From Rubritalea squalenifaciens DSM 18772 (GTDB lineage Bacteria > Verrucomicrobiota > Verrucomicrobiia > Verrucomicrobiales > Akkermansiaceae), in assembly GCF_900141815.1 (NCBI RefSeq), contig NZ_FQYR01000005.1, positions 310,001 to 374,000 of the forward strand: a stretch of 64,000 nucleotides of DNA, written 5' to 3'. The notes below the pieces were generated by a model. It saw only the letters and a list, made by a program, of their open reading frames with translations, ran no database searches and had not been told where the DNA came from. Shown piece by piece: positions 30,267-51,564 of this stretch (the stretch's first letter is position 1; every line of letters begins with the position of its first letter). The position numbers and the translations under genes were made by a program.

Positions 30267-30291
30267 GGCTGTTGTCTGTTAGTTGGTGGAG

Positions 30292-30330
30292 ATACCCCTG
30301 CGGCGCCATCAAATCGCGCCGCAGGGGTAT
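30292..30330. other. Strong intercistronic stem-loop
   Basis: A perfect 14-bp GC-rich stem (ATACCCCTGCGGCG with its exact complement) closes an 11-base loop between the receptor and hydroxylase genes. Neither side has a T-run, so it is better read as an mRNA-stabilising or processing hairpin, or a partial attenuator, than a simple terminator. It could make receptor levels exceed hydroxylase levels. Confidence 0.65.
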
Positions 30331-30366
30331 TTGTTATGAGGTCGGTGGTATGAAAAAACTGATCTG

Positions 30367-32523: not shown

Positions 32524-32537
32524 AGATTTAATCAGTG

Positions 32538-33903: not shown

Positions 33904-34662
33904 ATGGCTAATTACTTTCCTCGCTGGACCAATCTCCTGCCACTCAAGATAGCGATCTGTGTAGGATCTGTTGTAGGTGGCCTCGTGTTGGCCTTTACCT
34001 ACTACGCGACTCCTAAGACTCAACGTGTTGGGTATCAGCCTTCGCAGCCGATCCCGTACGATCACGAATTGCACGTTAAGCAATTAGGTCTGGATTGTCG
34101 TCATTGTCACAGCTTCGTTGAAGAATCTGGTCACGCAAACGTGCCTTCCGCGAATACCTGCTGGAACTGTCACCGTCACGTGAAGACCGATAGCGAGCGT
34201 CTTGTTCCTCTGCGTCGTGCTATTGATCCTACATACGAGGGTTACACAGGTGAGCCAGTCAAGTGGGTGCGCGTTCATAGGTCTCCAGACTACGTTTTCT
34301 TTGATCACTCAGCACACCTTAGCCGCGGTATCTCCTGTGTGAGCTGTCACGGTCAGGTAAATGAAATGCCTGAGGTTTATCATGCCAAGTCCCTCTCAAT
34401 GGATATGTGTATCACCTGTCACCGTAGTCCAGAAGAGCACATTCGTCCGCTTGAGGAAGTCACTAATCTTGACTTCATTGCCAAGGACTATATCTCCGCC
34501 CGTCCAGAGCTGGCAGAAGAGATCGAGAAGTTCAGCGCTGAGCACGATCTGAAGCTCAAGCCGCACGGTTCTCAGAAGGAGGCACAAGTTGCCCTCGGTT
34601 CCTTGCTCAAGCACAAATGGTCAGTACAGCCTAAAGAGAGCTGCTTCACTTGCCACCGTTAA
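33904..34662 (+). CDS. actA: Alternative complex III subunit ActA (pentahaem cytochrome c)
   Basis: ActA is the multihaem cytochrome c of ACIII, the quinol:cytochrome c oxidoreductase that replaces the bc1 complex. The 252-residue protein has one N-terminal membrane anchor (IAICVGSVVGGLVLAFTYYA) and five CxxCH sites at residues 65-69, 86-90, 145-149, 169-173 and 247-251, the number seen in characterised ActA. It carries electrons from the iron-sulfur subunit toward the monohaem ActE and oxidase side. It is the first gene of the operon, behind the palindrome. No Shine-Dalgarno sequence precedes the ATG. Confidence 0.95.
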   Translation: MANYFPRWTNLLPLKIAICVGSVVGGLVLAFTYYATPKTQRVGYQPSQPIPYDHELHVKQLGLDCRHCHSFVEESGHANVPSANTCWNCHRHVKTDSERLVPLRRAIDPTYEGYTGEPVKWVRVHRSPDYVFFDHSAHLSRGISCVSCHGQVNEMPEVYHAKSLSMDMCITCHRSPEEHIRPLEEVTNLDFIAKDYISARPELAEEIEKFSAEHDLKLKPHGSQKEAQVALGSLLKHKWSVQPKESCFTCHR

Positions 34663-34704: not shown

Positions 34705-37700
34705 ATGAGCAAACGCAAATGGCATCATCCTGAAGTTCCTGCTGGGGAGCGCGTCACTAAAGTATGGCGCAGTGCTGGTGAACTCGAAGATACACCTGCT
34801 CTTCGTCAGTGGGTAGATCGTGAGTTCCCTCGTGCAGCAGAGTCCATGCGTGACGAAGACGACCGTGAGTCTACACGTCGTGACTTCCTTAAGGTAATGG
34901 GGGCATCCACCGCATTGGCCGGTTTCGGCTTGGCAGCTTGCCGCCGTCCGGTTGATCTGATTGTTCCTTTCGTAGATGCTCCAGAGTGGGTGATTCCAGG
35001 TAAGCCACTCTACTACGCATCTTCCATGCCAAGTGCTGGTGGTGCTACACCACTGATGGTGACTACCTACGAAGGTCGTCCTACCAAGCTTGAGCCAAAC
35101 CGCATCCACGCTGAGGGTGGTGGTACAGACTCATTTGTTCAGGCATCCGTGCTCGATCTTTATGATCCTGCTCGCTCTCGTGATTTCCTTTCCAAAGGTT
35201 CCAAGATCAGCCGCGATGAGGCGATCAAGAATCTCTCCGGTCTCGTGAAGAGCGGTAAAGTTGGTTTTGTCTTCGGTGAAGATGACTCCGCAACCCGCAC
35301 ACGTCTCCGCAAGGATCTGGCCGCTAAGTACACAGGTGCCAAGTTCTACAGCTACGAAGCACTCGCTGGTCAAGGCCGCAAAGCTTCCGTGGAAGCGACC
35401 TTCGGCTCCGGTGCTGAGGTTGTTACTGATTTCTCCAAGGCTAAGCGCATTCTCTCCGTAGACTGTGACTTCCTTGAGCTTGATCGTCAGGGTTCCGTGA
35501 AAGGGTTCTACGATCTCCGCCACGTCAACAAGCGTGACTACTCCGAGAAGGATGCCACCAAGAGTGTTGCTGGTATGAACCGTCTCTATATGGCGGAGCC
35601 TACCTACTCGCTCACTGGTGGTCTTGCTGATCACCGTGCGCCACTGGCTCCTAGCCAGGTTGGTCGCTTCCTCTCCCAAGTAGCACAAGAGCTTGGTGTT
35701 GCAGTCGATAACATCCCTGGTGGTAAGTTCGACGGTGACAAGGCCAAGTGGATCACTGAGTGTGTTAAGGATCTCAAGAGTTCAAGAGGTGAGGCGGTTG
35801 TCCTCCTCGGTAGCCGCTATGCGAAAGAGCTTCACGACCTTGCTTTCCTCATCAACCAGAAGCTTGGTGCTTATGGTAAGACTCTCAAGGCCGTCCAGAC
35901 TGAGAAGGCTGGTCTTGGCGATGTAGCTGGCCTTGTCCGCGACATCGATGCAGGTAATCTCGATACCGTCATTCTTCTCACCCCTGCCAACCCACTCCTC
36001 GAGAATCCAACTGTCGAACTTAGCGACAGCAAGAAGGTTTCTCTTGCGGATGCCCTTGGCAAGGTGAAGGTGGTCCAGTGGGGTACAAGCCTCAATGCGA
36101 CTGCTAATGCAGCTGATCTTCACATTCCAGCCGCTCACTATCTTGAGAGCTGGGGTGATACTTACTCATCCACTGGTGTCTACACCGTGGTTCAGCCAAT
36201 GATTCTTCCACTCTATGGTGGTATCACTGAGCTTGAGCTTCTCAGCGGACTTCTTGCTGATCAGGTTGAGCTTCACGACTCCATGGCTGACGCCAAGGCG
36301 GTATCACCAGGTTACTACGCAGTGCGTAAGACCTTCAAAGGGATCAGCAAGGTTAGTGGTGAGCGTGCCGAAGTAGCTTCCTTCAAGAAGCTTCTCCGTG
36401 AAGGTTTCCTCGCTGACGCCAGCTACAGCGACATCACTGGCGGTGCCAAGCAGGTTTCCGTGCCAGCGCTCAAAGAGGTTTCTGCTCCTACCGAGAAGGG
36501 TCTCGACATCATTTTCCAAACTGACGCATCCCTCAAGGATGGTCGTTACATCAACAACGCCTGGCTTCAGGAAGCTCCGGATCCAGTATCCAAAGTTTGC
36601 TGGGATAACGCGCTCTACATGTCTCCAGAGACTGCCAAGAACCTTGGTATCTACGAGGAGCTTGTTAAGCTCGAGAAAGCAAGCCAAGCATGGTGGGGCT
36701 TCGGTCCTGACATTAAGAAGACCGATGTCCCTGAAGAGGGTGAGGGTCCTAGCCTCTACGCTCCAATGGCTTCCGTTACCGTCAACGGTAAGGAACTCGA
36801 AGCACCAGTTATCGTTTCCTTCGGTATGGCAGACAACGTGGTCGCAGTAGCACTCGGTTACGGTCAGGCCTACGACCAGCACTTCGGTGATCAGTTCAAG
36901 GGTGGCAACCCTTCCTTCTACGACGGTTCCGCCATCACTCCACAGAACGTTTCTTCCGTTGGTGTAAACACAGGTTTCGATGCTTACCCACTTCGTGGAA
37001 CTAGCGATTACTTCACCACTGGTGCAGTAGTTTCCCGCAGTAAGTCCGGTAACACCTACAAGATGGCACGTACTCAGGAGCACCACTCCATGTACGGCCG
37101 TGCGATCGCTCGTGAAATCTCCACCATGGATGATGAATACGGCGGGCACAAAACTGATTTCGCAGGTCAACTTAAGAAGGTGCAGAAGCAGGGGATGGAT
37201 TCCCACGCTCCTGAGAATATCTCTCTCTACAAGCCAGAAGGTGCAAAAGATCCTAACGATCCAGACAAGCGCCTTCCACACCTTTCCGACAAGTCCCACC
37301 AGTGGGCGATGTCTATCGACCTCTCTGTCTGTAACGGCTGTAACGCCTGTCTCGTAGCCTGCCAGGCTGAGAACAACATCCCAGTTGTTGGTAAGACTCA
37401 GGTCGCCATGGGCCGTGAAATGCACTGGATCCGTATGGACCGCTACTTCGCAGCTCCAGACGAGAAGAAGGCAGAAGGCAAGGACGAGTGGTTGACCGCT
37501 CCTGAAATGATTCCTCAGCCAGTAGCTTGTGTGCAGTGTGAAAGCGCTCCATGTGAGACCGTTTGCCCGGTGAACGCCACCGTTCACACCGAGGACGGCC
37601 TTAACTCCATGGCATACAACCGCTGTATCGGTACTCGTTACTGCGCGAACAACTGCCCATACAAGGCACGTCGTTTCAATTTCTTCGATTACAACAAGCG

Positions 37701-38202
37701 CAACCCAGTTATTCACAAGAACCTTTACAAAGGTCCATTGGGTGAGAAGCAGGTTGGTGATTCCAAGCACCTTCAGCGTAACCCGAACGTTTCCGTTCGT
37801 ATGCGTGGTGTCATGGAGAAGTGCACCTACTGTGTACAGCGTCTTCAGACCGCTAAGATCGAGGCCAAGCAGAACACCAAGAAGAAAGCACTCGCGGGTG
37901 CTGGTTCAGTCAATACCGAGGTTTCTCCTCAGGACCTCATGTCCAAGACTGACGCAGTGCGCGTAGCCTGTCAGGACGCATGTGAAGCGGGTGCCATCGT
38001 CTTCGGTAACCTCCTTGATCCGAAATCTACGATCCGCCGCATCAAGGACGAGAACAACAAGATCATCAATGATCGTGCCTACGATCTCCTCAACTACATC
38101 GGTACACGTCCTCGTACGAGCTACCTTGCTCGTGTGAAGAACCCGAACCAAGACATGCCTGGAGCAAAACTTGTCGGTCGTGCAACTATCCACATGCACT
38201 AA
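34705..38202 (+). CDS. actB: Alternative complex III subunit ActB (molybdopterin-like/iron-sulfur)
   Basis: This 1165-residue protein joins a molybdopterin-oxidoreductase-like domain, which in ACIII carries no molybdenum cofactor, to a C-terminal ferredoxin-type iron-sulfur domain. A Tat signal is present near residue 55 (TRRDFLKVMGAS). From about residue 870 come the clusters: CNGCNACLVAC, CVQCESAPCETVCP, CIGTRYCANNCP and the CTYC ... CQDAC set. The Thr in CIGTRYC replaces a usual Cys, which fits the single [3Fe-4S] cluster known in ActB beside three [4Fe-4S]. The protein sits on the periplasmic face and passes electrons from the quinol site to ActA. Codon bias is strong. Confidence 0.95.
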   Translation: MSKRKWHHPEVPAGERVTKVWRSAGELEDTPALRQWVDREFPRAAESMRDEDDRESTRRDFLKVMGASTALAGFGLAACRRPVDLIVPFVDAPEWVIPGKPLYYASSMPSAGGATPLMVTTYEGRPTKLEPNRIHAEGGGTDSFVQASVLDLYDPARSRDFLSKGSKISRDEAIKNLSGLVKSGKVGFVFGEDDSATRTRLRKDLAAKYTGAKFYSYEALAGQGRKASVEATFGSGAEVVTDFSKAKRILSVDCDFLELDRQGSVKGFYDLRHVNKRDYSEKDATKSVAGMNRLYMAEPTYSLTGGLADHRAPLAPSQVGRFLSQVAQELGVAVDNIPGGKFDGDKAKWITECVKDLKSSRGEAVVLLGSRYAKELHDLAFLINQKLGAYGKTLKAVQTEKAGLGDVAGLVRDIDAGNLDTVILLTPANPLLENPTVELSDSKKVSLADALGKVKVVQWGTSLNATANAADLHIPAAHYLESWGDTYSSTGVYTVVQPMILPLYGGITELELLSGLLADQVELHDSMADAKAVSPGYYAVRKTFKGISKVSGERAEVASFKKLLREGFLADASYSDITGGAKQVSVPALKEVSAPTEKGLDIIFQTDASLKDGRYINNAWLQEAPDPVSKVCWDNALYMSPETAKNLGIYEELVKLEKASQAWWGFGPDIKKTDVPEEGEGPSLYAPMASVTVNGKELEAPVIVSFGMADNVVAVALGYGQAYDQHFGDQFKGGNPSFYDGSAITPQNVSSVGVNTGFDAYPLRGTSDYFTTGAVVSRSKSGNTYKMARTQEHHSMYGRAIAREISTMDDEYGGHKTDFAGQLKKVQKQGMDSHAPENISLYKPEGAKDPNDPDKRLPHLSDKSHQWAMSIDLSVCNGCNACLVACQAENNIPVVGKTQVAMGREMHWIRMDRYFAAPDEKKAEGKDEWLTAPEMIPQPVACVQCESAPCETVCPVNATVHTEDGLNSMAYNRCIGTRYCANNCPYKARRFNFFDYNKRNPVIHKNLYKGPLGEKQVGDSKHLQRNPNVSVRMRGVMEKCTYCVQRLQTAKIEAKQNTKKKALAGAGSVNTEVSPQDLMSKTDAVRVACQDACEAGAIVFGNLLDPKSTIRRIKDENNKIINDRAYDLLNYIGTRPRTSYLARVKNPNQDMPGAKLVGRATIHMH

Positions 38203-38250: not shown

Positions 38251-39750
38251 ATGGCTGACTCAGCAACAGCAACCAAGGGCGCGGAAGGCTCCGAGGACAA
38301 GAATTTCAAGCTTCCAGTACTGGAGCGTGAAAAGCTTATCCTGAACAACCGTTCCTATCACTGGATCACTGAACGTATCGCAGGCATCGTCGAGAAGCCT
38401 CAGCCACTGCTTTGGTGGTTGCTCTTCATCCCATCTGCATTGATCGCCCTGATCGGTGTTGGTGGTGGTCTGTCCTACCTCGTATCAACAGGTGTTGGTG
38501 TGTGGGGGAACACAAACCGCACCATGTGGGGCTGGCCGATCGTTAACTTCGTTTTCTGGATCGGTATCGGACACGCCGGTACATTGATTTCGGCGATTCT
38601 CTTCCTGACGCGTCAGAACTGGCGTACCTCGATTAACCGAGCGGCGGAAGCGATGACAATCTTCGCGGTATGTTGTGCGGGTATCTTCCCAGCCTTCCAC
38701 GTGGGTCGTGTATGGATGGCTTGGTTCCTTGCCCCGATTCCTAACGCGAACGCCATCTGGCAGAACTTCAAGTCACCACTTCTTTGGGACGTATTCGCGG
38801 TATCGACTTACTTCACCATCTCTCTGATTTTCTGGTACCTCGGTATGGTTCCTGACCTTGCAACCATCCGTGACCGTGCCAAGCCAGGCATCCGCAAGCT
38901 TCTTTACGGAATCTTCTCTCTCGGATGGCGCGGCGGTAACCGTCAGTGGAGCCACTATGAAATGGCTTACCTGCTTCTCGCAGCACTCTCCACTCCACTC
39001 GTTCTTTCCGTTCACTCCATCGTTTCCTTCGACTTCGCGACATCTACAGTTCCAGGATGGCACACCACCATCTTCCCGCCATACTTCGTGGCAGGTGCGA
39101 TCTTCGGTGGTTTCGCAATGGTGATCACCATCATGGTGCCAGCCCGTTCTATCTACGGCCTGCACGATGTGATCACAATGAAGCACATCGAGAACATGTC
39201 CAAGATCATCCTCGCGACAGGTACGATCGTTGGTTACGCCTACCTCATGGAGCTCTTCGTGGCTTACTACTCCGGTGCTAAGTACGAAATGGAAGCCTTC
39301 AAGATTCGTATCACTGGTCCTTACTGGTGGGCCTACGTTTCCATGATGTTCTGTAACGTGATTGCTCCACAGGCATTCTGGTTCAAGAAATGCCGTGAGA
39401 ACCTCTGGGTCGTCATGACCATCTGTATGTTCGTGAACATCGGTATGTGGTTCGAACGTTTCGTGATTATCGTGACCACACTCCCACGTATGTGGCTGCC
39501 AGGTGACTGGAAGTACTACGAGGCATCCCCAGTGGACGTCATGACCTTCGTAGGAACCATCGGTATGTTCCTAACACTGTTCCTTCTCTTCCTGCGCTTC
39601 CTTCCATGTATCAACATCGCTGAGGTGAAATGGACACTCCTCGAGAGTGACGCTCACTTCGACGACAAGAAGGCACATCCAGACAAGGGTGTCGCTAGCG
39701 AGCCATCCTATCAGTACGAACTCAACGTGAATCCCAACGTCGAGTGCTAA
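38251..39750 (+). CDS. actC: Alternative complex III subunit ActC (NrfD-like)
   Basis: ActC is one of the two large NrfD/PsrC-type membrane subunits and provides the quinol-binding site. The 499-residue protein has about ten transmembrane helices. Typical elements are [17 protein letters not shown] at the start, [51 protein letters not shown] and [21 protein letters not shown]. It should lie between ActB and the membrane-embedded ActF in the complex. The spacer before it (48 bp) lacks a Shine-Dalgarno sequence. Confidence 0.95.
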
Positions 39751-39791: not shown

Positions 39792-40346
39792 GTGAGCACA
39801 ACAGTCAAAAGAGTCTACGGCTACCTCGCCGAATTCGAAAGCGCATCTGCCCTCTACAAGGCAGCTGAGAAAGTGCGCGACGCCGGATTCAAGAAATGGG
39901 ATTGCTACTCATCTTACCCGATCCACGGAATGGATCAGGCCATGGGCATGCGTCGTTCCATCCTTCCATACTTCGTATTCTTCGGAGGTTCCACTGGTTT
40001 GCTGACCGGCTTCAGCTTGGCCTTCATTACTCAGGTTTTGATCTACCCAACCGTAGTTCAGTCCAAGCCTGCTAACATCTTCACCACAGCGGCGTTCTTC
40101 CCGATCATGTTTGAGCTTACGATCCTGTTCTCAGGTTTCACCGTGCTCTTCTGCTTGCTCGGCCTCATGGGGCTTCCTCGCCTCAACCACCCGCTGTTCG
40201 CCAGCCGCCAGTTCCACCGTGCTACTGATGATGGCTTCTTCATCGCCATCGAGGCTCGCGATCCGAATTTCTCCGCCGAAGAGACCAAGGCCCTCCTCGA
40301 AGAGGCAGGTGGCCGCAACATCGAACTCGTCGAAGAAGAGGACTAA
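39792..40346 (+). CDS. actD: Alternative complex III subunit ActD (DUF3341)
   Basis: ActD is a small accessory membrane subunit of ACIII with a DUF3341 domain. The 184-residue protein shows the family pattern VYGYLAEFESASALYKAAEKVRDAGFKKWDCYSSYPIHGMDQAMGM, two transmembrane helices, and a C-terminal soluble part (FFIAIEARDPNFSAEETKALLEEAG) resembling a small alpha/beta domain. It probably stabilises the membrane part of ACIII; it has no cofactor motif. It starts with GTG at 39792. Confidence 0.93.
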   Translation: MSTTVKRVYGYLAEFESASALYKAAEKVRDAGFKKWDCYSSYPIHGMDQAMGMRRSILPYFVFFGGSTGLLTGFSLAFITQVLIYPTVVQSKPANIFTTAAFFPIMFELTILFSGFTVLFCLLGLMGLPRLNHPLFASRQFHRATDDGFFIAIEARDPNFSAEETKALLEEAGGRNIELVEEED

Positions 40347-40383: not shown

Positions 40384-41046
40384 ATGCGATACTTCTTTCT
40401 CATCTACGCCCTGGTAGTGGTGCTCGTAATCAGCATCTTCGGTTTCCGTGGCGAAAAGTTCAAGCAGTCTCCTATCCGTATTTTCCCAGATATGGATGAG
40501 CAAGACCGCGTGAACTACCAGGCCAAGTCCGACTTCTTCCACGACGGCATGGGTTCCCGCCAGCCAGTTGACAAGACTGTGCCACAGGGTCTCAAGCCAA
40601 TCTCTGAAGCAGGTGAAGTTCAAGCTGATGGTTTCACTAACGATGTCACTTACTTCCAGACTGGAATGATCGACGAACAGTTCTTCGGTCAGGGTCTTCC
40701 TGTCAAGGAGCTCGATCTCACTGAGGAGACTGCTGAGGCTTTCCTCAAGCATGGAGCCACAACCTACGACGTTCATTGCTCACGTTGCCACGGTGAATCC
40801 GGTAACGGTAAGGGTGTGCTCCACGAGTACGGTCTCCCGGGTATTGCAAACTTGGTGACTACCAAGCTCAGCGATGGAGCCATCTTCAACATCATTACAA
40901 ACGGCCGCGGTAACATGGGTCACTTCAAGCACAACTTGGATCTCCATGATCGCTGGGCAGCCGTTGCCTACATTCGTACGCTTCAGTACTCACGCAGTGT
41001 TCCTAAGGAACTCCTTGAGAACACAGACGCTACCGAAACCAAGTAA
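40384..41046 (+). CDS. actE: Alternative complex III subunit ActE (monohaem cytochrome c)
   Basis: ActE is the monohaem cytochrome c of ACIII that hands electrons to the soluble or oxidase-bound acceptor. The 220-residue protein has an N-terminal membrane anchor or uncleaved signal (FLIYALVVVLVISIFGF), a long linker typical of ActE (IRIFPDMDEQDRVNYQAKS), and one CSRCH haem site at residues 132-136. A Met in RGNMGHFKHNL is the probable sixth ligand. It lies between ActD and ActF as in canonical act operons. Confidence 0.94.
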   Translation: MRYFFLIYALVVVLVISIFGFRGEKFKQSPIRIFPDMDEQDRVNYQAKSDFFHDGMGSRQPVDKTVPQGLKPISEAGEVQADGFTNDVTYFQTGMIDEQFFGQGLPVKELDLTEETAEAFLKHGATTYDVHCSRCHGESGNGKGVLHEYGLPGIANLVTTKLSDGAIFNIITNGRGNMGHFKHNLDLHDRWAAVAYIRTLQYSRSVPKELLENTDATETK

Positions 41047-41086: not shown

Positions 41087-42535
41087 ATGGCACATCACGT
41101 CACATCCAAGGACATCCCGGCTAACGGTGAAAAAATCGCGAAGAGCAAGGTAGCTCTTCTCCAGATGATTTCACTGGGAGTATTCGTAGTCGGAGCCATT
41201 GCTAGTTACTGGTTTTTCACTAATGAAACATTTGGTAGCGGTTATGCATATTCCTGGCTCTTCGCTTTCATCTTCTTCATCACCTTGGCGCTGGGTGGTT
41301 GCTTTTGGACCACGCTTCACCATGTGACCAACTCCGGTTGGGGGGTGAGTGTCCGTCGTCTGATGGAAAACCTCGGTTTCGTTTTCCCATTCATGGCGAT
41401 CATCGCCGTTCCTCTTCTCATTCCATCCGTTCAGGACGACCTTTACGAGTGGATGAACCGTTTGCGCTTCGTTGAACAGACCGTTGAAGCCAAGGCTGTA
41501 GTGGTTGACGGTGTCAAAGATGGTTACAAGGCTGTACCAGTTGCTGGCTCTGAGAACATCGATCAAAACAACCCTGGTGGTGGTTACACTTCACCAGCTA
41601 AAGAGCAGCTTAAGGCGACACATGATGCCCATGATCACCTTCTAATCAATAAGCTCTGGTACATGAATCTCGAGTTCTGGCTCGGTCGTGTGATCTTCTT
41701 CTTCGTGGCCCTCGGAGCAGGTATCTACTTCTTGCGTAAGATCTCTATCGCGCAGGATACCGATCCTAACCCGACAACTCGCCGACTGATTCTCGCCCGT
41801 AAGCTTTCCTGCGCAGTCATGCCTGTCTTCGCAGTTGTGGCTACCTTCATCGCCTTCGACTTCATGATGGGTACTGACTACAAGTGGTTCTCCACCATGT
41901 ACGGTGTGTACTTCTTCGCAGGTTGCGCGCTGAACTCCATGGCAGTTCTGATTCTCGCTCTTACGTGGCTTCGCTCCAAGGGTTACCTTCAGACGGTTAC
42001 CAGCCCTGAGCACTACCACATCATGGGTAAACTCATGCACGCCTTCGTGATCTTCTGGGCCTACGTTTCTTTCTCCCAGTTCATGCTGATCTGGTACGCC
42101 AACATCACCGAGGAAACATCCTACTTCCTCCTTCGTAATAGCTCTGACGGAAGCACAAACTGGAACCTCTGGAGTACTCTCCTCGTCTTCCTTCACTTCG
42201 CACTTCCATTTGCGATTCTCCTTCCTCACTACATGAAGAAGAAAATCAAGTTCATCGTGCCGATCTGCATCTACTTGCTCATCATGCACATCATGGATCT
42301 CTACATCGCGATCATCCCTGAGCGTGGACCATCACTCTCAGTCATGGACAAGCTTGCTGAGACCAATGGCGACATTCTTCTTACAGCTAACTATCCTGCT
42401 TACTTGGGGGACATCGTAGCCTTCATCACAGTGGGTGCCTTCTTCCTCTTCATCTTCGTGCGTAACATCGCAAGTGCAAACCTCTATCCGAACCGCGATC
42501 CACGCATCCTTGAATCAGCTAACCTGCACAACTAA
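41087..42535 (+). CDS. actF: Alternative complex III subunit ActF
   Basis: ActF is the second large membrane subunit of ACIII, structurally related to ActC/NrfD. The 482-residue protein has about ten transmembrane helices with a soluble loop after the third or fourth helix (residues about 120-185). Family features include FWTTLHHVTNSGWGVSVRRLMENLGFVFPF, YWxFF-type helix starts, FDFMMGTDYKWFSTMYGVYFFAG, LMHAFVIFWAYVSFSQFMLIWYANITEE and HFALPFAILLPHYMK. It has no cofactor. It ends the ACIII block proper; the next genes belong to the oxidase modules. Confidence 0.95.
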   Translation: MAHHVTSKDIPANGEKIAKSKVALLQMISLGVFVVGAIASYWFFTNETFGSGYAYSWLFAFIFFITLALGGCFWTTLHHVTNSGWGVSVRRLMENLGFVFPFMAIIAVPLLIPSVQDDLYEWMNRLRFVEQTVEAKAVVVDGVKDGYKAVPVAGSENIDQNNPGGGYTSPAKEQLKATHDAHDHLLINKLWYMNLEFWLGRVIFFFVALGAGIYFLRKISIAQDTDPNPTTRRLILARKLSCAVMPVFAVVATFIAFDFMMGTDYKWFSTMYGVYFFAGCALNSMAVLILALTWLRSKGYLQTVTSPEHYHIMGKLMHAFVIFWAYVSFSQFMLIWYANITEETSYFLLRNSSDGSTNWNLWSTLLVFLHFALPFAILLPHYMKKKIKFIVPICIYLLIMHIMDLYIAIIPERGPSLSVMDKLAETNGDILLTANYPAYLGDIVAFITVGAFFLFIFVRNIASANLYPNRDPRILESANLHN

Positions 42536-42574
42536 TTAGCCGATCAATCGAAACCATTAACGCAATACAATTTC

Positions 42575-42907
42575 ATGGAGCCTAACTTAAGAGATACACC
42601 GCTTCGCCGTTTCAACACCTTCTGGTGGGGCTTGGCACTGTTCGTAGTTTTTGCCCTCGTTGCATTTATTCTTCGCGGAATCGACAGCGACGAAATGTCC
42701 ACAGCAGAGACGGAGCGTGGTAAAGAGCGTACAGCGATCCTTGAAAAGGTAACTGCTGAGCAGCTAGCTGAGCGCGACACCTATAAGGAACTTGGCGACG
42801 GCAAAGTGCAGGTCAAGCCGACCCAAGTATTCGGTCTTGCCAAGGAAATGGGCCTTCTCGAGGAGCCAAAGGCTTCCGAGGCAAAACACAACATGAAGTT
42901 TAAATAA
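42575..42907 (+). CDS. Small single-pass membrane protein between ACIII and cbb3-like genes
   Basis: The 110-residue protein has one transmembrane helix (TFWWGLALFVVFALVAFIL) after a short cytoplasmic N-terminus, then a charged helical segment (STAETERGKERTAILEKVTAEQLAERDTYKEL) and a tail (QVKPTQVFGLAKEMGLLEE). It shares the operon's codon bias, so it is a real expressed gene. I do not recognise a family. Position suggests a small subunit or assembly factor for the ACIII/cbb3-like interface. Confidence 0.7.
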   Translation: MEPNLRDTPLRRFNTFWWGLALFVVFALVAFILRGIDSDEMSTAETERGKERTAILEKVTAEQLAERDTYKELGDGKVQVKPTQVFGLAKEMGLLEEPKASEAKHNMKFK

Positions 42908-42973
42908 GTCTGGATTATTTCCAGGTTTTCTATCCTAGACATCTTTCTAACCGACCAACCAATCATCTGATTC

Positions 42974-44479
42974 ATGTCAACTGAGTTCACAAGTCAACAA
43001 GTGGAAGACACGAAGTTGAGAGCGGAAATCGACCGCTCCCTCCGTCACCCAGTGATGTTCTTCTTCACCAGTGGAGCGGCCTGGCTGGCAGTATCCCTGC
43101 TTCTCGGCATCATTGCTTCCGCAAAGTCCCATTCTCCTGGTTTCTTGGGTGATTGTGCGATTTTCAACTATGGTCGTGTTATGCCGGCACACATGAGCAC
43201 CTTCATCTACGGTTGGTGTGCTCAAGCAGCCTTCGGTACCATGATCTGGCTGATGGCCCGCCTTTCTCGTCAAGAGTCCCGCAAGGCAGGCTTCATCCTT
43301 GTTGCAGGTCACGTCTGGAACTTGGTCGTTGCTATTGGAACCATTGGTATCCTTCTCGGTGGAGGCACAGGTAAGCCTTGGATGGCTTTCCCAACTGGGG
43401 TCTGGCCAGTTCTTCTCGCTTGCTACGCAGCGATCGGTATCTGGTCTGTGATTGCATTCCGTGTTCGCCGCGGTGGTCACGTCTACATCTCTCAGTGGTA
43501 CATCCTGGCAGCTCTCTTCTGGTTCCCATGGGTGTTCATCTCCGGTAACCTCTTCGTCAATACCTTCGTTGAGAGTGGTAACCCAGTAATGGCTGCAGCG
43601 ATCAATGCCTGGTTCCGCTCCGGTCTTCTCTACCTCTTCTTCACCCCAATTGCTGTAGCAAGTGCTTACTACATCGCTCCTAAGGTAACTGGTCGTCCGG
43701 TATACTCCTATAAGCTCGCTCTTCTTGGGTTCTGGGCTCTCGCCATCATCGGCCCATGGGCTGGTATGCAGAGACTCATGGGTGCTCCAATCCCAGTCTT
43801 CCTCCAGTACGCAGGTGCTGGTGCAGCGATTCTTTTCATCATTCCTTCTCTTGCTGTGGGGGTTAACATCCTCAAGACAGCTGGTGGCAAGCAGAGTGCT
43901 ATCGCTCACTCCCCATCCCTTCGTTTCACCATCGCAGGTATCGTAGGTTTCGTGGCTACTACAGTGACAGGTGCACTCCTCTCACTACCATCAGCACTCA
44001 AGTACACCCAGTTCTCCATCGCGAACTACGGTTTCGAGATCCTAGCACTCTATGGATTCTTCTCCATGTGCATGTTCGGTGCGATTTACTTCATCGTACC
44101 ACGTGTGACCAACCGCGAGTGGCTTTCCAGCGGCCTGATCCGTCAGCACTTCTGGCTCTCCCTGTACGGTGTTGTCTTCATCGGCTTGTTCTGCTCCATC
44201 CTTGGTGGTTTCATGCACGGATATAGCTTGGAGCAAATAGGTGAGCCACTTAAGGCCGCTCACGACCGTCTCTTCCCATACGCAGTAGGTGTGACTACAG
44301 GCTGGGTGTTCGTCTGCATCGCCAGCGCATTCTTCTGCTGCCACCTTCTTCTCATGTGGCTCCGCCTTGGTCGCCGCAGCAACCATCCTACACTTCTTGT
44401 TCACGGTCCAGCTCACAGCCCACACGGTCCAGAGGGTGACATCGAGGAACTCGAAGCAGCAGGCAAAACCGTTTACTAA
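42974..44479 (+). CDS. CcoN-like haem-copper oxidase subunit I homologue lacking active-site histidines
   Basis: The 501-residue polytopic protein aligns with CcoN, the catalytic subunit of cbb3 oxidases, across its length: NYGRVMPAHMSTFIYGW, HVYISQWYILAAL, GRPVYSYKLALLGFWAL, FGAIYFIVPRVTNRE. Only the helix II His (H73) remains. The helix VI CuB His is Ser216 (WFRSGLL). The HisHis pair is Gln266-Arg267 (GMQRLMG). The helix X HxH segment has no His (SIANYGFE). It should therefore be unable to bind CuB or ligate haem b3, and low-spin haem b lacks one axial ligand. A structural or docking role is inferred. It keeps the operon's strong codon bias, arguing against decay. Confidence 0.85.
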   Translation: MSTEFTSQQVEDTKLRAEIDRSLRHPVMFFFTSGAAWLAVSLLLGIIASAKSHSPGFLGDCAIFNYGRVMPAHMSTFIYGWCAQAAFGTMIWLMARLSRQESRKAGFILVAGHVWNLVVAIGTIGILLGGGTGKPWMAFPTGVWPVLLACYAAIGIWSVIAFRVRRGGHVYISQWYILAALFWFPWVFISGNLFVNTFVESGNPVMAAAINAWFRSGLLYLFFTPIAVASAYYIAPKVTGRPVYSYKLALLGFWALAIIGPWAGMQRLMGAPIPVFLQYAGAGAAILFIIPSLAVGVNILKTAGGKQSAIAHSPSLRFTIAGIVGFVATTVTGALLSLPSALKYTQFSIANYGFEILALYGFFSMCMFGAIYFIVPRVTNREWLSSGLIRQHFWLSLYGVVFIGLFCSILGGFMHGYSLEQIGEPLKAAHDRLFPYAVGVTTGWVFVCIASAFFCCHLLLMWLRLGRRSNHPTLLVHGPAHSPHGPEGDIEELEAAGKTVY

Positions 44480-44522
44480 TCATTTTTAAACTTTCTCAAC
44501 ATCCAACGCTTTACTGAAATCC

Positions 44523-45299
44523 ATGACAGTTAAGACATTCTTCATCGGCCTCTTTGCTAGCTTTGGTATTCCATGGCTGGTTCTGGTTGCCATCCCATTC
44601 TCTAAAATGCGCTCCATCGAGCCTGTTGAGTATGATGAAATGGCGGACGGCAAGACCGGCTTCTACCAACACAAGACCAGTGGTCGTGCACAAAACGGAT
44701 CCATCATCTACGGACAAGAAGGTTGTGCTACATGCCACAGTCAGGTAGCTCGTCCAACTTATGCTGGTAACGACGTTCATCAGAATGACCTCGCTGGTAT
44801 CGCCAAAGATCCTGAGCGTGGTAACACACGCCGCGAGAGCAACCTCTGGGACTACTCCAATGAGCAGTACGCGTGGATCGGTGAGACTCGCATTGGTCCA
44901 GACCTTAGCAACTTCGGTCGCCGTGTGGAAATGCTCGCCCATGAGCATAACAAGGCTGCTGCAGAAGCTCTGGATGTCGAAGTGAATGCACTTCCTCAAT
45001 CCAAGCGTTTCGATGCTCAGAAGTACGTTCTGACACGTCTGTTCAATCCTAGACTTGTACCACATCGTGACTGGTCCAACTGTCCGTCTAACCGCCAATT
45101 CTTCACTGAGAAGAAAGTCTACGGCCAAGGTTCAGCAAATGCGATTCCTGTAGAAGGTGAAGAAGAGGGAGTTGAGATTATCGCTGATGATGAAGCGATT
45201 GCTCTCGCTGACTACCTCCTTAGCCTCAAGCGTGACGGCGAGGTGCCATACAGCATCAACTACCGCCGCGATAAAGTTAAAGCCTCTGAGAAGAAGTAA
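44523..45299 (+). CDS. CcoO-like membrane-anchored monohaem cytochrome c
   Basis: The 258-residue protein matches CcoO, the monohaem subunit of cbb3 oxidases: N-terminal membrane anchor (FFIGLFASFGIPWLVLVAI), haem site GCATCHSQ, then TRIGPDLSNFG. Where CcoO has the MPxYPW element that supplies the axial Met, this protein reads SNCPSNRQF, so Met is replaced by Cys or the ligand lies elsewhere (only one other Met, in VEMLAH, follows the haem site). Haem attachment is retained, so electron transfer is possible at an altered potential. It is paired with the CcoN-like gene, as ccoNO normally are. Confidence 0.85.
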   Translation: MTVKTFFIGLFASFGIPWLVLVAIPFSKMRSIEPVEYDEMADGKTGFYQHKTSGRAQNGSIIYGQEGCATCHSQVARPTYAGNDVHQNDLAGIAKDPERGNTRRESNLWDYSNEQYAWIGETRIGPDLSNFGRRVEMLAHEHNKAAAEALDVEVNALPQSKRFDAQKYVLTRLFNPRLVPHRDWSNCPSNRQFFTEKKVYGQGSANAIPVEGEEEGVEIIADDEAIALADYLLSLKRDGEVPYSINYRRDKVKASEKK

Positions 45300-45362
45300 T
45301 TTTCCTGGGTCTCTGTGCCAAAGGTATAGAGGCCCGATCACACCCAACTGATAAGAATTCCA

Positions 45363-46142
45363 ATGTCATCCGAACCATCACCAGTAGATCCTAAGAAGCC
45401 GGATCTTGAGGAAAGCACCAACGTACGCGAAGCACACGCTGACGTTCTCCGTACTGCTACTGCGGCAGCACGTGAGCAACACTTGCGTGAGAACGGCTTG
45501 GAGCCAGTTTCCGTTTGGATTATGATCGCCGGTTTCATCGTAGCACTCGTTGGCGGAAGCGTTTTGCTCTCCAGTGGCGAATTTTTCTCCTACGACTCAC
45601 TCGTGAGAGAGGGCTATGTGCAATCAATCAATGAAGGGGGAGATCCAGAAGATCCAACTGCTCCAGTCATCGATGCCTACATGAAGAAGGGTGGATCTAT
45701 CTACGCAACTCGCTGTGCATCCTGCCACACACCAGGTGGTACTGGTGACGGGGCTAACTTCCCACCACTTGCAGGTTCTGAGTGGGTCAATACTTCCGGC
45801 GCTGTTCCATCACTTGTTATTCTGCACGGTCTTGCTGGCCAAATTGAAGTTGCAGGGAAGACATACAACGGCAACATGCCTCCAATGGGGGACGGCCTCA
45901 CAGACTTCGAACTCGCGGCTCTCCTTTACTTCATCCAGAACAGCTGGGGTAACGAAGTTGGCAAGATCTACGGCCCTGAGCAGATCGCTGAAATTCGCAA
46001 GATCGCTGACAGCGTAACTGGCGGACAGACTACTGCCGAAGAACTTAAGAAGCATCTCGATCAGGAACTCCCAGGTGAATACCTCACCGAGGACAAACAA
46101 ATTAATCTCAAGACTGGAGAAGTCGTTGACGCAGCCCAGTAA
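45363..46142 (+). CDS. Membrane-anchored monohaem cytochrome c (CcoP position)
   Basis: The 259-residue protein has a cytoplasmic N-terminus of about 50 residues, one transmembrane helix (VWIMIAGFIVALVGGSVLL) and a periplasmic class I cytochrome c domain with CASCH and a likely Met ligand in NGNMPPMGDG. A charged helical extension of about 50 residues follows. It occupies the place of CcoP but has a single haem and one helix, whereas classical CcoP is dihaem. It could be the cytochrome that links ACIII to the CuA centre of the aa3 oxidase, whose subunit II lacks a fused haem. Confidence 0.85.
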   Translation: MSSEPSPVDPKKPDLEESTNVREAHADVLRTATAAAREQHLRENGLEPVSVWIMIAGFIVALVGGSVLLSSGEFFSYDSLVREGYVQSINEGGDPEDPTAPVIDAYMKKGGSIYATRCASCHTPGGTGDGANFPPLAGSEWVNTSGAVPSLVILHGLAGQIEVAGKTYNGNMPPMGDGLTDFELAALLYFIQNSWGNEVGKIYGPEQIAEIRKIADSVTGGQTTAEELKKHLDQELPGEYLTEDKQINLKTGEVVDAAQ

Positions 46143-46180
46143 TCCATTTATCCGACCGCAACATTTAACCACGTGATCCT

Positions 46181-48046
46181 ATGAGTGACCATCACGACGA
46201 CCACCACAATCCAAACTTTATCCAGAAGTACATCTTCTCGACCGACCACAAGATGATCGGTATCCAGTACGGTATTACCGCACTCTTGTTCCTTCTGTTC
46301 GGTTTCTTCCTTATGATGGTAATGCGCTGGAGCATTGCCTATCCAAACGAGCCGCTTCCAGAATGGCTTGGTTGGGTATTCACTGACGAGTGGAAGGGCC
46401 GCTGGCTCATCGACGGTAAGGTGACAGGGGAGACCTACAACATGTTCGGTGCAATGCACGGAACCATCATGGTTTTCCTTGGTGTAGTTCCTCTTGGGTT
46501 CGGTGCCTTCGGTAACTACGTGACACCACTTCAGATTGGTGCTCCGGATATGGCCTTCCCGAAACTCAACATGATGTCCTACTGGCTATACCTTATCGGT
46601 GGTCTCATGATGTGCGGATCTTTCTTCCTCGAGTCTGGTACTGCAAAGTCCGGTTGGACTAACTACCCACCACTCTCTGCACTTGCTGACTCTCAGCATC
46701 CGAACCAGTTCTTCACTGGTCAGACCCAGTGGTTGCTCGGTCTGGTCATGCTGATCAGTTCCTCTCTTCTCGGTTCCGTCAACTTCATCACTACCATCAT
46801 CAACCTTCGTGCGAAGGGGATGACCTGGATGCGTATGCCATTCTTCGTATGGGCGATGCTTGTGACTGGTTTCCTTCTTCTGCTTGCCTTCCCTCCACTT
46901 GAGGTAGCTGGCATCATGCAGGTGGTTGACCGTTTCTTCGGTTCCTCCTTCTTCCAGCCAACTGGTCTCTACACTTCTGCACAGGGTGTAGTCGAGCAAG
47001 CTGGTGGTGGTTCACCACTTCTCTTCCAGCACTTGTTCTGGTTCCTTGGTCACCCTGAGGTATACGTTCTCCTTCTTCCAGCGATTGCCTGTGTAGCGGA
47101 AATCATTCCTTGTAACACACGTAAGCCACTCTGGGGCTACAAGTCCATGGTGTACGCTGTGCTGGTACTTGGTTTCCTCTCCTTCATCGTGTGGGCTCAC
47201 CACATGTACCTGACAGGCATGGGACCATCTGTTTCCACCTTCTTCCAGACCACGACGGTTCTGATCTCCGTCCCATCTGTGATTTTGATCACCTCCATGA
47301 TCATTTCCCTATGGGGTGGTTCCATCCGCTTCACCATGCCAATGATCTGGGCCTGTGCCTTCTTGCCGATGTTCGGTATCGGTGGTCTGACCGGTCTTCC
47401 ACTGGCATTCAACCTGGTGGACCTTCACCTTCACGATACCTACTACGTGATCGGTCACTTCCACTACGTGGTTGCTCCAGGTATTCTCTTCGGTCTCTTC
47501 GCAGGTATCTATCACTGGTACCCTAAGATGTTCGGTCGTCACATGAACAACTTCCTTGGCCATCTTCACTTCTGGCCATCACTGATCCTCATCAACTTCG
47601 TGTTCTTCCCGATGTTGATCCAAGGTATGGCTGGTTTCCACCGCCGCTGGTACAATGGTGGTGATGCCTATGTGCAGGACAAAGGTGGTGAGAACGTATA
47701 CGGCCAGACAGTGGCTGAGTACATCGACCTCAACCAAGTCATGTCCGTAGCGGTATTCCTTCTCGCCCTCGCTCAGCTTCCGTTCATCATCAACCTCTTC
47801 ACTGCTTGGTTCTCAGGCAAGAAAGTTACTAGTGATAACCCATGGGATGCGACAACTCTCGAGTGGGCGACACCAACGCCTCCAGGCCACGGTAACTTCA
47901 CTTTCGACATCGCAACTTACCGCGGTCCTTACGAGTACAGCCGTCCAGACCGTGAGGAAGACTTCACACCACAGTGGGAGGCTCCTAAAAAGCCAAGTAC
48001 TGAGCCATCAACTGAAGAACCAGTAGAGGCGAAAGACGCTCACTAA
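46181..48046 (+). CDS. ctaD: aa3-type cytochrome c oxidase subunit I
   Basis: This 621-residue protein is the catalytic subunit of a proton-pumping haem-copper oxidase that reduces oxygen to water. All metal ligands are present: H93 and H428 for low-spin haem a, H426 for haem a3, H291, H340 and H341 for CuB, and Tyr295 in GHPEVY for the His-Tyr crosslink. A K-channel Lys is seen in WGYKSMVY. The protein has at least 12 transmembrane helices. It is therefore the true terminal oxidase of the operon, in contrast to the CcoN-like protein two genes upstream. No Shine-Dalgarno sequence precedes it. Confidence 0.96.
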   Translation: MSDHHDDHHNPNFIQKYIFSTDHKMIGIQYGITALLFLLFGFFLMMVMRWSIAYPNEPLPEWLGWVFTDEWKGRWLIDGKVTGETYNMFGAMHGTIMVFLGVVPLGFGAFGNYVTPLQIGAPDMAFPKLNMMSYWLYLIGGLMMCGSFFLESGTAKSGWTNYPPLSALADSQHPNQFFTGQTQWLLGLVMLISSSLLGSVNFITTIINLRAKGMTWMRMPFFVWAMLVTGFLLLLAFPPLEVAGIMQVVDRFFGSSFFQPTGLYTSAQGVVEQAGGGSPLLFQHLFWFLGHPEVYVLLLPAIACVAEIIPCNTRKPLWGYKSMVYAVLVLGFLSFIVWAHHMYLTGMGPSVSTFFQTTTVLISVPSVILITSMIISLWGGSIRFTMPMIWACAFLPMFGIGGLTGLPLAFNLVDLHLHDTYYVIGHFHYVVAPGILFGLFAGIYHWYPKMFGRHMNNFLGHLHFWPSLILINFVFFPMLIQGMAGFHRRWYNGGDAYVQDKGGENVYGQTVAEYIDLNQVMSVAVFLLALAQLPFIINLFTAWFSGKKVTSDNPWDATTLEWATPTPPGHGNFTFDIATYRGPYEYSRPDREEDFTPQWEAPKKPSTEPSTEEPVEAKDAH

Positions 48047-48098: not shown

Positions 48099-49820
48099 AT
48101 GGAAATTCCATACATCGTCAATGCCCGTAAAGATACAGGGTTGAATAACTCCAAGATCGCGATCTGGCTCTTCCTCGCTTCCGAGGTGATGCTCTTCGGT
48201 GGTCTGTTCTCCTCCTATATCTTCCTCCGTATCTTTGCGGATTATCCATGGCCTGAGCGTGCACTTCCGGTGCTTCCAGGTCTCCTGAACACCTTCATCC
48301 TGATTGCGTCTTCCGTTACGGTTGTTTTCGCATGGGCGGCTCTCAAGCTGCGTAAGTGGGGTATGTTCGTGGGTAACATGAGCTTCACTATTATCTGTGC
48401 GGCAGTGTTCATGGTGTTCAAGGCTTACGAGTACAGCGCTAAGTTCCACCACCACGCCATCCAGACTCAGGACTACGGCATCATTGAAGGTCACCTTCAT
48501 GGCGAGAACAACTACGTGGTCAAGTCTCATGAGGAAGACGGCAAGGTCATTCCTTTTGAGGTAAATATTAGCCTTAGTAGCTACTATGACAAATACATCA
48601 CTTCCATCACTGAGCAAGCTGGTGAAGGTGCTCTCAAACTCAACGCTCCGTTCAAGGTTAGCGTAGTTGAAAACGGTCAATACAGTGAGCAGGTTCTCAA
48701 GTTCAAGACACAGGACGGTAATGAAGTTGAAGCTGTAGCTGGGACGACTCTGAGCTTCGATCTCCTCCAGTCCGCCAAGGCTGAATATATCAAGGCTCGT
48801 ACCCATAATCAGGAACTTCGTGCGAAACTTCTTCGTGATGCTTGGGCAAAGCTTCGTGAAGATGAAGCTTTCAAGAAGAGAAAAGCTTGGGAGTCTGAGG
48901 TGAAAGCAGAAGTAGCCCGCATCTTTGAGAAGGAACTCGTTGCTGACGCTAAGGAGCAGAACATGTTCCTTCTTGAAAACGGCAATATGACCTTCTCTGC
49001 TGAAGGTGAAATCAAGCTTGATTCCGGCTGGGGCCGCATGGAAGGCAAGAAAGAGGGTGGCGATACCAAGATCGCTCTTCTCGACAGTACTGTTCTCTCT
49101 GGTAAGGCAGGTGATGCCGGATTCCACATTGGAGTTGATGCCCTCGACTTCCGCCACCTCGTCATGAAGGCCGAGGAAAAAGGTCTCGATGCTGACGCTC
49201 TCATTGAAAAGTCTATCTATCTCAAGAACGACCAACTCAAACAAGCTTGGGAAGCTCACAAAAAGTACCGCGCGTTCTTTGCCGAGTACCTTGCTGAGGA
49301 AAGAGGTCGCGACGAAAACGGCAATGCCAAATACGTGCCTACCGCTGTTGATAATTACCGTGTGACTTGGAAGCAGCTCGTAGCTTACCACAAACTCGAC
49401 TACGACATCAACGAAGACAACTGGCAGATGGCCAAAGGCGGTCCTGGTACTGGTGAGTACGCTAACAAAGAGCGTGTCTACCCGACCATGATCCAGGGCT
49501 TCACTGGCGCGAACCACAAACAAGATGATTTCGTGGCAGCCTTCCCTGAAATGCACATCCACCGTGAAGATGTTCGCTTTGATTCTGTCTTCTCACCGAA
49601 GATGAACAACTACTACGCGATCTACTTCACTATCACAGGTCTTCACGGTCTTCACGTGATCGGTGGTGCCATCGTACTCGGTTACTATCTCTTCTTTGGT
49701 CGCAAGATGTACCTCTCCAATCCAGAGTGGCTTGCTAACCGCGTTGAAGTAGGTGGTCTCTTCTGGCACTTCGTTGACTTGGTCTGGATCTTCGTATTCC
49801 CGATCTTCTACCTGATGTAA
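48099..49820 (+). CDS. ctaE: Cytochrome c oxidase subunit III with large internal insertion
   Basis: Subunit III normally has about 200-260 residues; this one has 573. The N-terminal three helices (SKIAIWLFLASEVMLFGGLFSSYIFL through VFMVFKAYEYSAKF) and the C-terminal part (NNYYAIYFTITGLHGLHVIGG, GGLFWHFVDLVWIFVFPIFY) are canonical. Between about residues 118 and 490 lies a hydrophilic insertion. It contains a long charged helix (LREDEAFKKRKAWESEVKAE, VARIFEKEL), beta-rich segments and further helices (LIEKSIYLKNDQLKQAWEAHKKYRAFF). The frame is uninterrupted and the codon bias matches the operon, so it is not an assembly artefact. The insertion would form a large soluble domain on one face of the oxidase, of unknown role. 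Confidence 0.92.
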   Translation: MEIPYIVNARKDTGLNNSKIAIWLFLASEVMLFGGLFSSYIFLRIFADYPWPERALPVLPGLLNTFILIASSVTVVFAWAALKLRKWGMFVGNMSFTIICAAVFMVFKAYEYSAKFHHHAIQTQDYGIIEGHLHGENNYVVKSHEEDGKVIPFEVNISLSSYYDKYITSITEQAGEGALKLNAPFKVSVVENGQYSEQVLKFKTQDGNEVEAVAGTTLSFDLLQSAKAEYIKARTHNQELRAKLLRDAWAKLREDEAFKKRKAWESEVKAEVARIFEKELVADAKEQNMFLLENGNMTFSAEGEIKLDSGWGRMEGKKEGGDTKIALLDSTVLSGKAGDAGFHIGVDALDFRHLVMKAEEKGLDADALIEKSIYLKNDQLKQAWEAHKKYRAFFAEYLAEERGRDENGNAKYVPTAVDNYRVTWKQLVAYHKLDYDINEDNWQMAKGGPGTGEYANKERVYPTMIQGFTGANHKQDDFVAAFPEMHIHREDVRFDSVFSPKMNNYYAIYFTITGLHGLHVIGGAIVLGYYLFFGRKMYLSNPEWLANRVEVGGLFWHFVDLVWIFVFPIFYLM

Positions 49821-50694: not shown

Positions 50695-51564
50695 ATGTTT
50701 ATTAATAACATACTCGCAGCTTCTCCGTTTTCTCCTGCAGAATGGTTCGGCCTTCCAGAGAACTACTCCGCTCACGGTGACCAAGTTGGTCACATGATCG
50801 ACGTAATTACCTGGTTCATGCTCGCGCTCTTCGTAGGTTGGACGATTTTCTTCATCATCTGCTTGTTTAAGTTCTGGCACCGCCGTAATGCCAAGGCATC
50901 CTACCACGGTGTAAAGAACCATGCTTCTACTCACCTCGAGATTGGTGTAGTGATCATCGAGGCAGTTCTTCTTCTCGGTTTCGCTTTCCCACTCTGGGCT
51001 GAGCGTACTGATACCTACGACAAAGTTCTCAAGGACAACCCAGTGCGTGTTCGCGCTATCGGATTCCAGTTCGGTTGGAAGTACCACTATGCTGGTAACG
51101 ACGGTAAGTTCGGTTTCATTGATCGTGCGCTCGTATCTGGTCAAGGTGATGCTTGCATCGACCCTAACGATCCAAACGGTTTTGATGATTTCATCAACGG
51201 TGACCTTAAGCTCCCAGTAAACCGTCCAGCGATCGTTCAGGTAACTTCTACCGACGTGATCCACAACTTCTCCATCATCCCGATGCGCATCCAGCAGGAC
51301 GCGATTCCTGGTAAGGACATTCCAATGTGGTTCACTCCTACCAAGGAGCTCGAGACCTACGTTGTTTGTGGTCAGCTTTGTGGTTCCGGACACGGTGACA
51401 TGAAAGGTACTCTCATTGTTCAGGATGAAAAATCCTTCAATGGCTGGGCTCAGGATATGAGCAAGAAGGCCTACGAAAAGAACAAGGCTGCTTACGATGA
51501 GCGCCAGGCTGCAGCCAAGGCCGCAGAAGCTGCTGGTGACAGCCACGACGATCACGGCCACTAA
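50695..51564 (+). CDS. ctaC: Cytochrome c oxidase subunit II (CuA)
   Basis: Subunit II accepts electrons from cytochrome c at the binuclear CuA centre. The 289-residue protein has two transmembrane helices and a periplasmic cupredoxin domain. The CuA ligands are all visible: H190 in VIHNFSIIP, and C225, C229, H233 and M236 in CGQLCGSGHGDM. The bridging Glu, which binds by its backbone, is Gln here, a tolerated change. No haem c domain is fused, so this is aa3 rather than caa3. The tail is Ala/Lys- and His/Asp-rich (SHDDHGH). It is the last gene of the operon, far from subunit I. Confidence 0.96.
   Translation: MFINNILAASPFSPAEWFGLPENYSAHGDQVGHMIDVITWFMLALFVGWTIFFIICLFKFWHRRNAKASYHGVKNHASTHLEIGVVIIEAVLLLGFAFPLWAERTDTYDKVLKDNPVRVRAIGFQFGWKYHYAGNDGKFGFIDRALVSGQGDACIDPNDPNGFDDFINGDLKLPVNRPAIVQVTSTDVIHNFSIIPMRIQQDAIPGKDIPMWFTPTKELETYVVCGQLCGSGHGDMKGTLIVQDEKSFNGWAQDMSKKAYEKNKAAYDERQAAAKAAEAAGDSHDDHGH

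Follow-up and report, generated by a model that had tools for sequence, protein, structure and literature searches.

Haem-copper superfamily proteins are usually interpreted as reductases of oxygen or NO. Here we describe a family of CcoN-like proteins, hereinafter N, whose cofactor ligands have been lost more than once and which is still maintained by selection within a respiratory operon, with relatives retaining all ligands in the same block providing a natural control. In the window, i.e., the 64,000-nucleotide stretch of the Rubritalea squalenifaciens DSM 18772 genome analyzed here, N is encoded at 42974–44479 on the plus strand and belongs to the block actABCDEF-X-N-O-c, with actABCDEF directly upstream. 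To judge from their sequences, N, O and c, along with X, probably constitute a module of ACIII that lacks catalysis and serves in docking and electron relay. The N family can tell of both a non-catalytic role for an oxidase core and the handover of electrons from ACIII.

As the earlier note had read it, N is a full-length, in-frame CcoN-like protein: its frame codes for 501 amino acids, has no internal stops and scores 161 bits against the Pfam COX1 profile (cut-off 34.8). Against the NCBIfam profile TIGR00780 (ccoN) it reaches 125 bits, below the cut-off of 583; this shortfall is not decisive because two proteins with all ligands present, L102 (250) and L156 (267), also fall below that value. 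The alignment of N to CcoN of 3mk7 spans most of the protein, and its ligand positions were assigned by aligning it to this CcoN together with 19 CcoN-type proteins and 16 intact relatives. The active-site residues, which in what we take to be Pseudomonas stutzeri CcoN numbering are H60, H207, Y251, H257, H258, H345 and H347, align with H73, S216, G260, Q266, R267, F354 and I356 of N, the same assignments that the earlier note had made for S216, the Q266-R267 pair, the His-less helix X and H73 as the sole remaining ligand. N from the window keeps one of the six cofactor histidines (H73), so that it is without the ligands of CuB and haem b3 and without a bis-His site for haem b, and the active-site tyrosine of helix VII is absent (G260). 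Position 332, presumably equivalent to the cbb3 Glu323, is a threonine in N; it is a glutamine in all six of the proteobacterial triads described below and mostly I, L, Q or A in the intact group, with Glu not among the commonest residues. The accessible text of PMC5492636 terms a Glu in cbb3 mandatory.

The earlier note had also allowed for a misjudged gap. Helix X of N from the window (350–379) contains no His at all and, therefore, an alternative gap placement there cannot restore the ligands; any His within 349–380 is seen in 2 of 72 aligned Verrucomicrobiales rows, the window not being one of them, which rules out this possibility. These 72 rows comprise the window, four other loci and 67 of 72 further N loci drawn from named genomes, five of which were left out (four because N is truncated, one because it lacks N). 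All six histidines are present in none of the rows, and in 58 the five beyond H73 are all missing. H73 is kept in 70 rows and the haem b pair in none, while a His occupies the H207, H257 and H258 positions in 6, 8 and 2 rows, respectively. At the two ligand positions of helix X, every row has F, Y, L or M at one and I, V, L or M at the other. The loss of the ligands is thus confirmed at the sequence level as real and not due to chance.

The AlphaFold2 model of N (pLDDT 86.8, pTM 0.88) has the CcoN fold. It matches 3mk7_A with Foldseek TM scores of 0.83 (by query) and 0.89 (by target), and VIA-align superimposes it on 3mk7_D with a Z-score of 47.3 and an rmsd of 2.3 over 443 residues; the matches listed by both programs are haem-copper oxidases and NO reductases. 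Beyond the ligands, the window clade also lacks R70, E135 (aligned with 3mk7 E122), Y260 and H346, all fixed in the catalytic relatives. At ten positions one nearly fixed residue of the intact group has been replaced by a different nearly fixed residue in the window clade, which additionally has a majority-consensus tail at its C terminus, lacking in the intact group. Together, the ten switched positions and the tail suggest a new interface. In this poorly predicted tail, H471 and H484 are fixed or nearly fixed in the window clade.

The genes of the block and its downstream neighbors all lie on the plus strand. Its first gene, actA (33904–34662), codes for a multihaem cytochrome c with five CxxCH motifs by eye (Pfam Cytochrome_C7; named by gene order), and is followed by actB (34705–38202), an FeS/molybdoenzyme-like ACIII subunit matching the ACIII chains 6f0k_B, 8k9e_B, 6lod_B and 6btm_B, and actC (38251–39750), an NrfD-like subunit (6f0k_C, E 6e-180; 6btm_C; PF03916). 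Next come actD (39792–40346; PF11821 ActD, 193 bits), actE (40384–41046), a monohaem cytochrome c (PF13442; again named by gene order), and actF (41087–42535), which returned zero matches in a Pfam search and was recognized by its matches to 6f0k_F, 6lod_F, 8k9e_F and 6btm_F. An ORF between actF and N (42575–42907), which we term X, codes for a 110 aa protein with one N-terminal hydrophobic helix. Downstream of N are O (44523–45299), a CcoO-like monohaem cytochrome c scoring 24.6 bits against FixO (cut-off 29.6), and c (45363–46142), a monohaem cytochrome c recognized by profile and alignment, with CxxCH and Met172 kept. These are followed by ctaD (46181–48046), identified from its sequence and profiles as an aa3 subunit I, which by eye retains its His motifs, as had been noted earlier, ctaE (COX3; 48099–49820), matched by PF00510 in two pieces and carrying a long inserted stretch, and ctaC (COX2; 50695–51564; PF00116), whose sequence has a CxxxCxxxHxxM motif that we take to be of the CuA type. 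The insertion in ctaE is of about 370 aa; complete relatives of the Akkermansiaceae type are approximately 530–640 aa long, and those of the Methylacidiphilum type 263 aa. A scan of 42400–46300 recovered one promoter-like site (2.7 in shuffles) and four terminator-like sites (3.0 in shuffles), neither being above chance. Beside the operon on the minus strand (29574–33614) lie genes for what, from sequence appearance only, are a dioxygenase-like protein, a TonB-type receptor and an FMN-type hydroxyacid dehydrogenase.

Across the phylum, N matches at a threshold of 1e-10 were found in 59 of 194 sampled genomes. The N type could be assigned in 42 of these (the window and 41 others) on the strength of frame length and identity, plus gene order wherever it was read; the remaining 17 have only CcoN-type or similar proteins (nine read). 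No N match was obtained in any of the 17 listed genomes of genus g2 from the window's own family, indicating that the module is dispensable at the family level. In addition to N, the window genome codes for a CcoN-type protein that retains every ligand (L146) and is probably fused to CcoO given its 850-codon frame. Where N is present, its immediate neighborhood is strongly conserved, with actF upstream in 95 of the 96 loci with room for it and O and c downstream in 95 of 98. The linkage to aa3 is more restricted: ctaD lies within 4 kb downstream in 54 of 62 Verrucomicrobiales and all four Methylacidiphilum-type loci, and in none of the 16 other ligand-less or the 16 intact loci. Thus, adjacent aa3 genes accompany only the ligand-less N (58/82 against 0/16), and at least one further COX1-family match occurs in all 25 searched genomes having this form. 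The strict rule that all His-less members sit between actF and ctaD, which the earlier note had offered as a check, does not hold, as aa3 follows in only those 58 loci. Its proposal of a docking subunit between ACIII and aa3 accordingly fits the window and the position of N after actF, but not the whole family, part of which lacks an adjacent aa3 and whose sister group in the same block keeps the catalytic residues. In the genome sample we also encountered very weak COX1-family proteins with frames of 460–499 aa (G075:C34:30056-31258, G091:C1:4498533-4499714 and G099:C1:690039-691103), the first two adjoining a stronger oxidase gene; possibly they represent another degenerate oxidase family.

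N is under purifying selection, as assessed from the sequences of 95 close pairs, four of them intact. The dN/dS of ligand-less pairs with finite dS ranges from 0.026 to 0.242, single values being rough because many dS are high or saturated. In the pair L024/L025 the values for N and ctaD are 0.061 and 0.059, respectively; ctaD is the slower-evolving of the two in most pairs, a point against the reading preferred here. The ligand loss, the dN/dS, the conserved operon and the predicted fold lend good support to the view of the earlier note that a cbb3 fold has been reused without catalysis.

The catalytic ancestry of N is apparent from two sets of relatives. The first is a sister group in the same block (L102–L118), in which 16 of 17 loci have all six histidines and the tyrosine; the exception, L113, has lost all six histidines, its nearest relatives being intact. 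Two genomes with an intact N (G001 and G146) have no other COX1-family match, suggesting that their N is probably a working oxidase. The second set comes from plasmid records outside Verrucomicrobiota, of which 380 (with true CcoN included) matched N. Of these, six were read as stand-alone proteobacterial N-O-c triads (two from Paraburkholderia), and all six retain the six histidines and the tyrosine. No act gene was matched within the stretches read around them. In the plasmid-borne triads L156 and L161, the three genes are followed by those for a P-type ATPase, a molybdopterin oxidoreductase and another cytochrome c. N groups with the triads apart from CcoN with support of 100/100, and the N-O-c order is common to both, which establishes their common descent at the sequence level. 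The intact ligands of the sister group and of the triads thus point to a C-type oxidase that lost catalysis. L100 and L101, two members of another group, keep the haem b pair and have lost the CuB/b3 ligands, possibly as an intermediate state. A further CcoN-like group (L137–L141, f22) has all six histidines, with a Gln at the Glu323 position in L137; no act genes were matched in the stretches read.

On a tree of N computed with the ligand columns removed, the ligand state changes three times (73 rows), or twice in a 53-row set without the longest branches. A single loss is rejected, as joining L113 to the other ligand-less rows lowers lnL by 50 (p 0.013). A grouping of A with C is compatible with the data (p 0.41), and in the best 53-row tree it has support of 52/16; these groups may have lost the ligands once or twice. 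An ActB+ActC tree, built by a quick method from 43 rows (two of 45 were dropped for gaps), mixes intact and ligand-less rows and needs six changes; on it, group A (including the f9 row L131, placed elsewhere on this tree) and five intact f5 rows do not form one clade (p 0.0008). The conflict between the two trees would have arisen by convergence or by exchange of the N module. As a safe lower bound, these sequences imply that catalysis was lost at least twice, such counts assuming that ligands were not regained.

We propose that N, O and c (with X) go back to a C-type oxygen reductase of three subunits, whose link to ACIII arose in Verrucomicrobia. With the loss of the CuB, haem b3 and haem b pair ligands in the window lineage, oxygen reduction would be gone and N would have been kept as the membrane platform of an ACIII–oxidase assembly, holding c (and X and O) and bringing the oxidase close. 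Electrons would then pass from menaquinol via ActB and ActA/ActE to the haem of c and on to the CuA of a separate aa3 oxidase, which in the window would be the product of the next genes. The physical assembly, the direction of electron flow and the scaffold role of N are what we infer. In the 8 of 62 Verrucomicrobiales loci and the 16 further non-Methylacidiphilum-type ligand-less loci with no adjacent aa3 the partner oxidase is only putative. The role of c as a relay to CuA is probable from its sequence: CxxCH is kept in all 104 rows read (including 14 of the 16 intact loci) and the Met in 103, the remaining one being a gap. An X-like ORF with a strongly hydrophobic stretch was recovered in 103 of 107 actF–N gaps by a simple hydrophobicity search with no shuffle control. 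According to automatic calls without a case-by-case check, 28 of these have one CxxCH and eight have two, and X of L082 ends in a cupredoxin, variants which suggest that X might be a slot for exchangeable electron carriers. In L168 and L136 (G072), a nos (N2O reductase)-like gene cluster lies between actF and N, a layout with which the nos placement described for Methylacidiphilum caldifontis IT6 in the accessible part of PMC11102522 agrees. Gene X, along with the catalytic sister group and the O Cys187 swap discussed next, is new here, all three having been missed by the earlier note.

In the alignment of O to CcoO, Cys187 shares a column with the CcoO haem-motif Met, which we take to be the axial ligand. 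This position is a Cys in all 62 Akkermansiaceae-type rows, 48 of which have just three Cys in O (the two of CxxCH and that at the Cys187 position), while the Met is kept in all intact (16/16), Verrucomicrobiaceae-type (7/7), f6 (2/2) and Methylacidiphilum-type (4/4) rows, as well as in L113, L119 and 10 of the 13 rows of group A. None of the 106 O rows lacks CxxCH, and a fold search with the O model returned only weak CcoO matches, the best being 3mk7_B (E 1.4e-3). The invariance of the Cys argues against O being a simple high-potential relay. Likewise, H73, H113 and H457 (62/62 each) and H25 (61/62) are fixed or nearly so in the Akkermansiaceae-type rows, which argues against a pure scaffold, as it would not need them. 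These observations favor an explanation that we nonetheless regard as unlikely, namely that N still binds a cofactor through a changed site, either a haem by H73 only or a metal by H25/H113/H457, and O a His/Cys low-potential haem, together making up a new redox, sensing or gating device. While H25 and H113 are found in none of 41 catalytic relatives, H457 occurs in four, all proteobacterial triads (4/6), and is, therefore, not special to dead cores. Moreover, H73 is lost in all four Methylacidiphilum-type rows and in 12 of the 13 of group A, although the module is retained there, and H346, R70 and E135 are gone as well in the window clade. From the helix list and the usual topology, H25, H113 and H457 appear to face the cytoplasmic side, away from the lost haem sites. 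A more specific form, in which the Akkermansiaceae-type module combines a CcoO-fold His/Cys low-potential haem with a haem- and copper-less core bearing these cytoplasmic-side histidines to jointly gate the passage of electrons or protons between ACIII and aa3, strikes us as quite unlikely.

We hold it to be very unlikely that N serves ACIII in proton, ion or quinone handling, with the former channel in use but no redox center. The oxidase fold is kept in the model and polar residues are conserved (K51, R96, K237, Q346 and H392), though most of them are conserved in the catalytic group too, and both the helix VII Tyr and the cbb3 Glu (Thr at position 332) are lost. A role in assembling or stabilizing O, c or the aa3 oxidase would account for the retention of N despite lost catalysis and for the near-constant presence of O and c; with the strong purifying selection on N speaking against it and, to our knowledge, no precedent for an oxidase core acting as a chaperone, we deem it highly improbable. 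That N is a decayed, meaningless copy, which the loss of active-site residues might suggest and the earlier note had entertained for an isolated case, can be dismissed, since its dN/dS is well below 1, ligand-less versions are spread across several families of the class and N matches in the genome sample have no in-frame stop save for one TGA in the intact-type G119.

The preferred reading of N as part of a docking and relay module also bears on the literature on verrucomicrobial methanotrophs. Four pmoA-bearing genomes (G042, G054, G072 and G152) code for a ligand-less N with S, E, S, S, H, F and V at the seven positions and, in all four, aa3 genes adjoin N-O-c; a fifth (G008) has no N match. 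The other COX1-family genes of G042 are the aa3 gene of the block, a second aa3 gene elsewhere, two distant CtaD-like genes and one NorB, which leaves N as the sole C-type candidate there. As far as their accessible text goes, PMC6688271, PMC8498564 and PMC11102522 report a cbb3-type oxidase beside ACIII in Methylacidiphilum-type organisms and PMC10205796 lists one, with PMC6688271 linking it to high oxygen affinity in such a methanotroph. By its position, the ligand-less N would be this cbb3-type gene, strain identity being assumed. Hence, what the available portions of PMC8498564 and PMC6688271 call an oxidase is without ligands in the four genomes here, and annotations reading 'cbb3-type oxidase' need a ligand-by-ligand check; the oxygen affinity of a methanotroph has been explained by one of them. 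As for expression of the Methylacidiphilum set, PMC3404531 makes no mention of cbb3 or ccoN. The statement of the earlier note that no such family had been described stands with respect to ligand loss, of which no description was found in the accessible open-licence literature, whereas the gene set as such has been published under the above name. Similarly, the part of PMC13274419 available to us lists Verruconatronum with seven genes as ActABCDEF and then three called a caa3 oxidase; seven plus three genes fits actA-F-X and N-O-c, and this block may be mislabeled.

The ACIII–oxidase supercomplexes, whose existence is documented in PMC5928083, are among the nearest known counterparts. As in the window, the ACIII genes precede the oxidase genes in the ACIII–aa3/caa3 supercomplexes of Flavobacterium and Rhodothermus; unlike in the window, an N-O-c module is not mentioned in the accessible portion of that paper. 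The same portion describes the ActB1 domain of ACIII as devoid of a prosthetic group, which offers a precedent for N, and an ActG in Rhodothermus that X recalls by position and single helix. The nearest reachable relatives outside the phylum are the proteobacterial triads from plasmids of Paraburkholderia, Azoarcus, Cupriavidus, Paracoccus and Indioceanicola, which at 32–36% identity share the three-gene order of the window and differ from its N in their complete set of ligands. With CcoN of the cbb3 oxidase (3mk7), N has in common the predicted fold, the neighboring O and cytochrome c and H73, while having lost the remaining five cofactor histidines, the tyrosine and the glutamate at the Glu323 position.
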